In this document: one piece after another, positions 15,921-19,364 of the stretch | Numbering within the stretch: the first letter of the stretch is position 1 | Layout of the letters: each line of letters begins with the position of its first letter | Assembly: GCF_038446525.1 (NCBI RefSeq) | Contig: NZ_CP151792.1 | Location: 1,922,001-1,986,000, forward strand | Reading direction: 5' to 3' | DNA length: 64,000 bases | Source: Methanolobus sp. ZRKC5 | Lineage (GTDB): Archaea > Halobacteriota > Methanosarcinia > Methanosarcinales > Methanosarcinaceae | Notes under the pieces: generated by a model | Databases searched by the model: none | What the model saw: only the letters and a program-made list of their open reading frames with translations | What the model was told of the DNA's origin: nothing | Translations under genes and position numbers: made by a program

Positions 15921-16078
15921 TCTGTATTTTTGAGAATACATCTGAATATCTTTAATTTATGCTGTGGATATTCAGATAGTTTCTATTTTTTCATCTTAAG
16001 CACAATCCTATTTTTTAATCCACACTACCCTAATACTAATATACAATACCGAAGATTAGAACCTATAATCTATTGGTG

Positions 16079-17032
16079 ATGATATACTTGGTTTCGACTT
16101 CAGGCTCTAAAACACGAAATCCTTATCTTGAAATGTTAAGGCCGGAAATAGCGGATATGGATTTTGCTCTTCCTGCTGCAAGTGCTTTACTTGCTTCTTA
16201 TCTTGCAACAGGTGCGTTTCCGGAACTAGTGCTCTTTATTATAGCTGTTATCGGAGGTTATGTGGCGATCACAAGTTCCTATGTATATAATGACTGCTGT
16301 GATGTCGATATAGACACGATTAACCTTCCAAATCGTCCTCTTGTATCCAATAAACTCAGCCGTAAGCAAGCTATGAAGTATGCAGGTGTGCTGTTCTTAA
16401 TTGCAAGCATAGCAGCCCTCTACCTGAATCCTGAATCATTTGTGGTTCTGGTGATAGCAGTCGTAACTATAAGTGTATACTCAAAACTTGCAAAAAGAAT
16501 GACATTTCTCAGTTTTGTGCCTGTGGGAATAGCTTACGGGCTTGTGCCTATAGGTATCTGGCTGGCATTCGATCCGGCCGGAATTCTAAAGGGTCCTGAT
16601 TATGGCTCCATACTTCCCCTCCCTGCTATATTCCTTGGTTTGATGATGTGTTTCACTGACTGGGGTTTCACTCTTTCCGGTGTTGCCAGGGATGTAGAAG
16701 GTGACAGGGCCAGAGGAGCACCGACATTTCCAGTTACTTTTGGGGTTCCGGCAACCTCAAAGTTCGTAACTCTCATGTGGGTTGTAGGTGTAATAGCTTC
16801 TATTGCAATCGGACTTACAGCAAAGATCGGACCCATATATTTTGCAGGCGCAATGCTTGCAGGTGGGTGGATGCTCACACAGTCTTTTGATTTTATTAAG
16901 AACCCGACACAAGAACGTGGAGGCAGGCTATTTCTCCAGGGCTCCAGATACAGGGGCATCATGTTTGGTTCTCTTATACTAGATGTAATACTTTGCATAC
17001 TTGTTCCGGCATATTCCGGCATATTATGGTAA
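16079..17032 (+). CDS. UbiA-family prenyltransferase
   Basis: A membrane prenyltransferase of about 317 residues with some nine hydrophobic helices. It carries the UbiA metal-diphosphate motif YNDCCDVDIDTINLPNRPL (NDxxDxxxD) and a second Asp-rich loop VARDVEGDRARG. Members make archaeal lipid ether bonds (DGGGP synthase), quinones or similar. TTG (16073), GTG (16076) and ATG (16079) start the frame in a row; ATG 16079 is chosen. It is followed by a geranylgeranyl reductase and a radical SAM protein with 25-base and 3-base gaps, so the three act on one isoprenoid product. Which product is not decided by sequence. Confidence 0.85.
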   Translation: MIYLVSTSGSKTRNPYLEMLRPEIADMDFALPAASALLASYLATGAFPELVLFIIAVIGGYVAITSSYVYNDCCDVDIDTINLPNRPLVSNKLSRKQAMKYAGVLFLIASIAALYLNPESFVVLVIAVVTISVYSKLAKRMTFLSFVPVGIAYGLVPIGIWLAFDPAGILKGPDYGSILPLPAIFLGLMMCFTDWGFTLSGVARDVEGDRARGAPTFPVTFGVPATSKFVTLMWVVGVIASIAIGLTAKIGPIYFAGAMLAGGWMLTQSFDFIKNPTQERGGRLFLQGSRYRGIMFGSLILDVILCILVPAYSGILW

Positions 17033-17057
17033 TAATTAGTTGTTCCCGAGGTTCAAA

Positions 17058-18215
17058 ATGGATGCAGATATCATTGTAATAGGAGCTTCCCCTGCTGGTG
17101 TCATGGCAGCAAGGAATGCATCAGCTAAAGGTTGTAAAGTAATCCTGCTTGATAAAAAAGAAGCTGCAGGTGTCCCCACACATCCGGCAAACACATTTTT
17201 CAAAGGAATGTTTGACCGCACAGGTGAGGAAGTAGACCAGAGTTATGTCATCAAAAACCTCAAAGGTGCCTATATAGTAGCACCTTCTGGCAGAAATGTC
17301 ATCTTTGAAGGTGATGCTTACTTCCTTGACCGCAAGAAGTTCGATGAATTCTATATTCATCAGGCTGCAGAGGCAGGTACAGATGTTCGCTTCGGCATTG
17401 AGGTCCTTAATGTTCTAAGGGCTGCTGGGGGATTTGTAGTAAGTACATCAAAGGGCAAGATCAAGTGCAAACTCGTAATTGTTTCAGATGGTATTAATTC
17501 CAGAATAAGTGCCCTTCTTGGAATGAAACCTATCAAATATCCACAGGACATTGCCTGGTCCCTTGAAGCAGAGATAGAAGCAGAAGGAATTGGTGAACCT
17601 GAGCTGTTTGAATATTATGTTGGTAATCATGCTCCTGGATGGAAATCCACTTATTCACCATGTGGCGGGAACAGGGCAACCCTTGGCATGTATGTTCGAA
17701 GACATGGAAGGGATGTTTCTGACTTCTTCGATGATTGGCTTGAAAGGTTCAAGGAACTGAAGGGTCTTGATGAAGTCAAGATTATCAGTAAAACAGTAGG
17801 TGGTGATCCGATCGTTGCAATTCCTGGTGATATAGTTGCTGACGGTGTGATGGTGGTGGGTGGTTCTGCTGCCCAGTCGGGCATCGGATATGGTATGCAT
17901 GCAGGGCAGATGTGCGGTGATGTTGCAGCTGATGCAATTGCAAAAGGTAATCTGTCAAAGAGCTTCCTTTCTGAATACAGAACAAAATGGAACGCTGAAT
18001 ACAGGACAGAGTATTACCTTGGAAGGTTTGCCATGGAGACTCTCAGGAAAATGACTGACAAGGAGATCGATGAGATGATGAAGGTATTTGAAGGAGAGGA
18101 CTTGAAGGTACTTGGCGGAAGTCCTTTTAATCAGGCGTTACAGATATCCAAGCTGATATTGAAAAATAATCCATCTTCCATACTTTCATATAGGGCAATC
18201 TTCAGGACGAAATGA
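17058..18215 (+). CDS. Geranylgeranyl reductase family protein
   Basis: A 385-residue flavoprotein that saturates isoprenoid double bonds. An FAD-binding Rossmann start DIIVIGASPAGVMAARNA is at residues 4-21; later come the FAD-contacting VVVGGSAAQSGIGYGMHAG and a substrate domain with the GGR-type motif YYVGNHAPGWKSTYSPCGGN. The frame extends upstream to a TTG (17040), but GAGGT just before ATG 17058 marks the start. It is the middle gene of the UbiA-GGR-radical SAM operon. Substrates could be archaeal lipid chains or a methanophenazine side chain. Confidence 0.88.
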   Translation: MDADIIVIGASPAGVMAARNASAKGCKVILLDKKEAAGVPTHPANTFFKGMFDRTGEEVDQSYVIKNLKGAYIVAPSGRNVIFEGDAYFLDRKKFDEFYIHQAAEAGTDVRFGIEVLNVLRAAGGFVVSTSKGKIKCKLVIVSDGINSRISALLGMKPIKYPQDIAWSLEAEIEAEGIGEPELFEYYVGNHAPGWKSTYSPCGGNRATLGMYVRRHGRDVSDFFDDWLERFKELKGLDEVKIISKTVGGDPIVAIPGDIVADGVMVVGGSAAQSGIGYGMHAGQMCGDVAADAIAKGNLSKSFLSEYRTKWNAEYRTEYYLGRFAMETLRKMTDKEIDEMMKVFEGEDLKVLGGSPFNQALQISKLILKNNPSSILSYRAIFRTK

Positions 18216-18218
18216 GCG

Positions 18219-19364
18219 ATGAAGAACAAATATTATTTTTACAAAAATCCTTTTTTTAAGGTATATGCTCAGATAGTGAATGATCGGGTCAAGATGAAGA
18301 CCTCTGGCATTGCTTCCTCAATAATGGGTTCTTATGTTTCAGAGATGATGGAGATATTTGAGGATACAAAACCCTCAAAAGTGGAAAATGATCAGTTAAT
18401 ATACTCCACCTGGATGCCTCCTATACCCAGCAAGGCATTTGACCGGCTTGTATCAAGTCAGATGAGTGCAATGAGGGGTAAATTCATTCCGGAACAGATC
18501 ACAATCTCAATTACAGAAGAGTGTCCTAACAGGTGCATTCACTGCGCTTTACCGGATACTAAAAATAAAGCACGGCTCAGTCCTGATGTTGTTAAGAGTG
18601 TCATCGACCAGACTCAGAATATGGGCACCACTCTCATTATATTCGATGGTGGCGAGCCTTTGTTATATGATGGCCTTGAAGAGCTCATCAGTTATGTAGA
18701 TAGTTCACGCGCAATTGCGGGTCTGTTCACATCTGGTGTGGGGATGACTCCGCAGCGTGCATCAAGCCTTAAGGATGCCGGTCTTTCCATGCTAAGCGTG
18801 AGTTTTGACAGTGCAAACGAAGAAGGGCACGATTTTATGCGTGGAAGGCCTGGTGTATTCAATGATGCCGTAAATGCCATAAAGAACGGTCTGGATGCCG
18901 GTCTTTTAGTTGGTATGTATGTTGTTCTTTCGCCAAGAAATGTTGATGAGCTTGATGATTTTTATGAGCTTGCAAAAGAGCTGGGTGTGCATGAACTCTC
19001 TTTCTATGAGATCGTTCCTACCGGAAGGTGGCTGGACCATGGGAATGAAGTCCTTTCACCCGAAGGCCTGAAAAAGTTCGATGATTTTGTAGAGCGTACA
19101 TCTCATGCCGAAGGACCGCGCATTTTCCCCATTCCTCAGATCATAAGAAAAATGGGATGTTTTGCAGGCAGGAAATGGCTTCATGTAACTCCTGAAGGTG
19201 ATGTACTTCCATGTGCATGTATGCCAAAACCATATGGTAATATTCACGATGAACCTTTAGCATCGATATGGAATAAGATATACAAAGACCCTGTTTTTAC
19301 TTCAGGTCCCTGTCTTATGAGGGATTCAGAATTTAGAAAAGTCCACCTTGGACTCGAACAATAA
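18219..19364 (+). CDS. Radical SAM protein with SPASM-like C-terminus
   Basis: A 381-residue iron-sulfur enzyme. The radical SAM cluster motif is Cx3CxxC (C102, C106, C109, in TEECPNRCIHCALPD), followed by FDGGEPLLYDG (SAM-binding GGE). The C-terminal part has extra cysteines (MGCFAGRKWLHVTPEGDVLPCACMPKPYGN ... CLMRD), resembling a SPASM/twitch auxiliary-cluster domain. It starts 3 bases after the GGR stop codon, so it is translated with it. The reaction is unknown; a C-H chemistry step on the isoprenoid or its head group is an inference from context. Confidence 0.85.
   Translation: MKNKYYFYKNPFFKVYAQIVNDRVKMKTSGIASSIMGSYVSEMMEIFEDTKPSKVENDQLIYSTWMPPIPSKAFDRLVSSQMSAMRGKFIPEQITISITEECPNRCIHCALPDTKNKARLSPDVVKSVIDQTQNMGTTLIIFDGGEPLLYDGLEELISYVDSSRAIAGLFTSGVGMTPQRASSLKDAGLSMLSVSFDSANEEGHDFMRGRPGVFNDAVNAIKNGLDAGLLVGMYVVLSPRNVDELDDFYELAKELGVHELSFYEIVPTGRWLDHGNEVLSPEGLKKFDDFVERTSHAEGPRIFPIPQIIRKMGCFAGRKWLHVTPEGDVLPCACMPKPYGNIHDEPLASIWNKIYKDPVFTSGPCLMRDSEFRKVHLGLEQ

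Follow-up and report, generated by a model that had tools for sequence, protein, structure and literature searches.

A conserved UbiA–reductase–radical SAM gene trio of Methanolobus as a probable part of methanophenazine biosynthesis

The question raised by this locus is whether three adjacent genes of Methanolobus sp. ZRKC5 help to make methanophenazine, or 2-(2,3-dihydropentaprenyloxy)phenazine, the electron carrier to heterodisulfide reductase in the cytochrome-bearing methanogens, a major biological source of methane. Methanophenazine-based electron transport is probably also found in several ANME methanotrophs. The pathway was described as undeciphered in 2021 (PMC8546582), and our literature search, whose scope left out most subscription journals, found no paper tying these genes to methanophenazine.

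The window, the whole 64,000-nucleotide stretch that was analyzed (positions 1,922,001-1,986,000), comes from a 3.05 Mb genome in one contig. The original prediction described three genes with 25- and 3-base gaps, encoding a prenyltransferase, a flavin reductase of isoprenoid double bonds, and a radical SAM enzyme with extra cysteines; the open reading frames and domains agree with this layout (gaps at 17033-17057 and 18216-18218, all genes on the same strand), as do Pfam, NCBIfam, and motif searches with the three enzyme types. The trio is flanked by tgtA upstream and by a DUF7121 gene on the opposite strand downstream. Its promoter is expected in the tgtA–trio intergenic region, a placement made without promoter data and from the bases alone, and an in-frame TTG lies at 16073, ahead of the annotated UbiA start. 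The order UbiA–reductase–rSAM-1 and the strand are kept in 39 of the 40 rSAM-1 loci examined (Methanosarcinaceae and UBA10536), so the arrangement is not due to chance; in the sole exception (L044), only UbiA is missing, and it is found on another contig.

Table. Coordinates of the trio, its upstream region, and the two radical SAM paralogues encoded elsewhere.
Feature	Coordinates	Strand	Size	Remark
UbiA-family integral-membrane prenyltransferase	16079..17032	+	317 aa	ATG start 16079; ORF and Pfam
Geranylgeranyl-reductase-like FAD protein	17058..18215	+	385 aa	ATG start 17058
Radical SAM/SPASM enzyme rSAM-1	18219..19364	+	381 aa	ATG start 18219
Intergenic region tgtA–trio	15921..16078	+	158 bases	Upstream of UbiA; sequence
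rSAM-2	G000:C1:979576-980697			Paralogue outside trio
rSAM-3	G000:C1:1161940-1162995			Paralogue outside trio

The distribution of the trio was surveyed in 150 Methanosarcinales genomes, with a threshold of E<1e-100 for UbiA orthologues and of E<1e-50 for strong matches to MqnA/D, the only menaquinone marker scored. Families f2 and f3 were taken as ANME-2 by their closest named relatives, and f5 is Methanoperedenaceae. UbiA orthologues occur in 104 genomes (76/76 Methanosarcinaceae, 14/17 f2, 13/17 f3, and G094) and reductase orthologues in nearly the same set (76/76, 14/17, 14/17, and G094), while rSAM-1 follows a similar pattern and is absent from some fragmented metagenome-assembled genomes (MAGs); the f2 and f3 gaps are mostly incomplete MAGs. 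Neither UbiA nor the reductase has an orthologue in 39 genomes, comprising the 33 other f5 Methanoperedenaceae and six f4 members, and 38 of these carry MqnA/D (33/33 and 5/6, respectively). No genome of the order with the trio UbiA has a strong MqnA/D match, and a single marginal one was seen in Methanosarcinaceae (G141, E=7.8e-6). The Fisher p-value for this mutual exclusion, 5e-28, overstates independence, as the pattern rests on few independent gains and losses, a counterpoint to any reading built on it.

Carrier assignments for these lineages were drawn from two papers: methanophenazine use has been suggested for ANME-2a/b/c and ANME-3 (PMC9012536), and Methanoperedenaceae use menaquinone, with the exception of the basal member ASW-3, which is without the futalosine pathway (PMC7327174). 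Scored against them, the trio behaves as a methanophenazine pathway should, being present in the methanophenazine-using lineages, with gaps in fragmented MAGs, and absent from their menaquinone-making relatives. The co-occurrence check proposed with the original prediction thus came out in its favor, in that within the order the trio is limited to lineages without MqnA/D. The one named Methanoperedenaceae genome with the trio, UBA10536 (G094; L053, L074, L190), also has rSAM-2 and a GFPPS-like gene and gave no MqnA/D match; it is only 67% complete, so this absence is suggestive only, and the genome may either be of the methanophenazine type within a menaquinone family or be the result of mis-binning.

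The wider survey covered 257 genomes of the phylum; genomes outside it were not systematically covered. Methanothrix (Methanotrichaceae) has UbiA (52-54%), the reductase (41-45%), three rSAMs, and a GFPPS-like gene. Of the families in the phylum, only f9, f10, f20, and f34 have MqnA/D, and the only genome with both MqnA/D and an rSAM-1 orthologue is G223 (rSAM-1 at G223:C36:7728-8828, ANME-2-like), where rSAM-1 is probably contamination of the bin by ANME-2.

A second line of evidence comes from the paralogues of rSAM-1. Each complete genome encodes three enzymes of the rSAM-1 family, which fall into separate clades. The original prediction recognized the enzyme of the trio and overlooked the other two, along with the neighbor of rSAM-2: in Methanosarcinaceae, rSAM-2 (83% identical between this genome and Methanolobus psychrotolerans) is the next gene downstream of one for a polyprenyl diphosphate synthase and lies between ccmE-like and heme genes, ahbD among them, at one end and A-type ATP synthase genes at the opposite end. 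The best NCBIfam model of this synthase is GFPS_Meth (332 bits, next model 156), under the cut-off of 600. Geranylfarnesyl diphosphate (GFPP) synthase, MM_0789 or Mmah_1452, is the one enzyme that has to date been given a place in methanophenazine synthesis (Ogawa et al. 2010, as cited in PMC3017947). In the annotation of Methanohalophilus mahii, ATP synthase genes (Mmah_1442-1450), the GFPP synthase gene (Mmah_1452, the orthologue of MM_0789), and heme genes (Mmah_1457-1461) follow one another (PMC3017947); this order matches the rSAM-2 locus, and rSAM-2 would therefore be Mmah_1451, as inferred from locus-tag numbering. The synthase gene is not specific to methanophenazine, because GFPPS-like genes of 37-41% identity occur in trio-less genomes, namely Archaeoglobi-like f9 (G170, G179, G152) and f14 (G157, G166). 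None was found in the three ANME-2 f2 genomes tested (L070, L071, L072), though rSAM-2 is present there and, in L070 and L072, directly adjoins a ccmE-like gene; the f2 carrier may have another chain length. We count both facts against the synthase argument: the gene alone is not diagnostic, and it was dropped as a sole methanophenazine marker.

Full SPASM domains have seven cysteines. The rSAM-1 protein itself meets radical SAM/SPASM membership (Pfam Radical_SAM 81.6 bits, SPASM 35.7 bits), with the CX3CX2C motif CPNRCIHC at 102-109 (Cys 102/106/109) and four extra cysteines (314, 332, 334, and 365), fewer than a full SPASM region would carry. The nearest structures to its AF2 model (pLDDT 87.6) are SkfB, BlsE, SuiB, and PqqE. 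Its N-terminal domain of ~95 aa has no Pfam match and, in a separate low-confidence model (pLDDT 71.5, pTM 0.55), no PDB match at E<=0.001; with such a domain, a RiPP (peptide) substrate is unsupported, albeit not excluded. In four ANME-2c-type loci (L055, L056, L057, L058), a SagB-like nitroreductase with what appears by eye to be a lipoprotein-type leader is encoded upstream of rSAM-1, and in several loci of the same type (f3), the trio UbiA gene adjoins that of ATP synthase subunit C.

The best-scoring NCBIfam models for rSAM-1, AhbD, NirJ2, and others, and the position of rSAM-2 and the synthase beside ahbD and heme genes could point to a heme or tetrapyrrole, prenylated or modified in another way, as the product. 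All of these models score far under cut-off (123 bits against the equivalog cut-off of 500 for AhbD heme b synthase), the AhbD-type proteins that these genomes also encode fall into a clade of their own, and the cytochrome-rich Methanoperedenaceae (PMC7327174) do without the trio. We regard a heme product as very improbable.

The trio UbiA belongs to the UbiA superfamily (Pfam E=7.9e-44, 150 bits, cut-off 34.2), and its Asp-rich motifs are intact (NDCCDVDID at 71-79 and DVEGD at 205-209, for the pattern NDxxDxxxD and DxxxD), yet it scores under every curated UbiA-family cut-off among the models listed, reaching 88.8 bits against the 296 required of a DGGGP synthase. The genome has five UbiA-family proteins, of which one, encoded elsewhere than the trio, is the DGGGP synthase (L002, G000:C1:2100608), with 378.5 bits and over the curated cut-off. 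In the tree, the trio UbiA and its Methanothrix orthologues form one clade (support 99/97) apart from the DGGGP synthases; several other branches are very long, leaving the wider placement uncertain. Judged by these scores and this clade, the trio UbiA is not the lipid DGGGP synthase. Placement within the DGGGP-synthase clade, in a genome with no second copy, would have refuted the original prediction; the protein has its own clade, and a true DGGGP synthase is encoded at another site of the genome.

The flavoenzyme is likewise a remote homologue of known families. Its best NCBIfam model, GG-red-SF (TIGR02032), gives 117.4 bits, under the cut-off of 158.8, so membership in that geranylgeranyl reductase family is not met, and its best PDB match is 3oz2 (2.5e-26). 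Archaeal lipid geranylgeranyl reductases share a conserved cysteine and a YxWxFP substrate motif. In the alignment, the trio protein lacks both, having HPAN and PGWK in their place, and shows GG where GD is expected, features that we count against the methanophenazine reading; PGWK is invariant in all trio-reductase orthologues aligned, those of MSBL1 and UBA148-type archaea included.

Could the trio instead make a modified membrane lipid, such as an archaeol derivative? The UbiA, geranylgeranyl reductase, and radical SAM families each include archaeal lipid enzymes, and the rSAM-1 model has a distant structural match in GDGT-MAS. The genome, however, encodes a dedicated DGGGP synthase and, elsewhere, a closer lipid-type reductase (L037), nothing requires a lipid to show the alternation with menaquinone genes that is seen for the trio, and hydroxyarchaeol synthase is a homologue of phytoene desaturase. 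A lipid product is very improbable. Of the two options first entertained for this operon, methanophenazine is favored and lipid modification disfavored by the separate DGGGP synthase, the UbiA clade, and the MqnA/D-free lineages.

Relatives of the reductase and the rSAMs outside these lineages also count against the methanophenazine reading. Small-genome families f11, f15, f17, and f21 (UBA148-type 'Methanocellales' MAGs, Met33H, MSBL1 SCG-AAA382B04) have three rSAMs and a reductase orthologue, whose genes usually sit together with those for a fourth radical SAM protein, an NMT1/THI5-like protein, and a divergent protein with a UbiA domain. These seven genes form one cluster in UBA148/Met33H-type genomes (L100:9824-17572, L101:9690-17268, L102:7523-15179, L103:1394-9015), where the NMT1/THI5-like protein has no obvious signal peptide, and are split over two loci in MSBL1 (L213-L215). 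In the tree, the divergent UbiA stands apart from that of the trio, and the NMT1-like protein has only weak matches in the Methanosarcinia genomes tested (best ~E=1e-18). An extra Methanothrix radical SAM gene, in the UbiA–rSAM-1 interval, was considered as the fourth radical SAM of the cluster and rejected, its sequence reading by eye as MoaA. MSBL1 and UBA148-type archaea are also without MqnA/D, and to our knowledge they are not known to make methanophenazine. These clusters, with their additional proteins, leave room for some other prenylated redox carrier or cofactor, as yet undescribed, alongside methanophenazine, a reading that we nonetheless consider unlikely: the position of rSAM-2 beside the GFPP synthase gene favors methanophenazine itself, and prenylation with partial saturation fits its known structure.

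We therefore conclude that the trio is quite probably part of the methanophenazine biosynthesis pathway, because it excludes MqnA/D, is present in methanophenazine lineages, and has a paralogue beside the GFPP synthase gene. This is a genomic inference without biochemistry or metabolite data: gene order, conservation, co-occurrence, MqnA/D exclusion, and the rSAM-2–GFPP synthase gene adjacency are direct observations, and every reaction is inferred from them. The full explanation, in which UbiA, the reductase, and rSAM-1/2/3 together build methanophenazine, remains probable. Once GFPP has been made, the tail is expected to need two more steps, transfer by a UbiA enzyme and reduction of an isoprenoid double bond by a flavin enzyme. 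UbiA would use geranylfarnesyl diphosphate to place the C25 chain on 2-hydroxyphenazine or on an aromatic compound earlier in the pathway, an inferred reaction that we hold to be likely, and the flavoenzyme, with somewhat less assurance, would saturate the first isoprene unit at its 2,3 double bond to give the dihydropentaprenyl chain. The three rSAM enzymes may carry out oxygen-independent radical steps in assembly or tailoring of the aromatic nucleus; this is our leading guess and the least certain part, and it stays tentative. It is more speculative still, and on present evidence doubtful, that the paralogues build the phenazine nucleus anaerobically, unrelated to bacterial PhzA-G, and form with UbiA and the reductase a redox-carrier pathway of ancient origin that serves as an alternative to menaquinone and is shared by MSBL1 and UBA148-type archaea.

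The analysis yields a short candidate list for methanophenazine synthesis (UbiA, the reductase-like protein, rSAM-1/2/3, and GFPPS), a genomic marker, the trio, that separates methanophenazine from menaquinone users, and the prediction that a related carrier is made by MSBL1 and UBA148-type archaea.

Compared with known systems, the trio UbiA shares its superfamily with archaeal DGGGP synthase (best PDB match 6m31, 1.4e-14) and differs in clade, and the flavoenzyme shares that of archaeal digeranylgeranyl lipid reductase without the latter's cysteine and YxWxFP. With AhbC/AhbD/NirJ, BlsE, SkfB, and PqqE, rSAM-1 has in common the CX3CX2C core, a shortened SPASM region, and a similar AF2 fold, whereas its unassigned N-terminal domain, its three paralogues per genome, and scores far below the AhbD/NirJ cut-offs set it apart. 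The MM_0789/Mmah_1452 GFPP synthase is a chain-length enzyme with no homology to any trio gene and lies at another genome site, where the corresponding gene adjoins the paralogue of the trio rSAM. Finally, although the trio proteins score below every curated cut-off for the menaquinone tail enzymes (MqnP/MenA UbiA and MenJ-type reductase) and the genome is without MqnA/D, both systems follow the same logic, UbiA prenylation and then saturation of the chain by a flavoenzyme.
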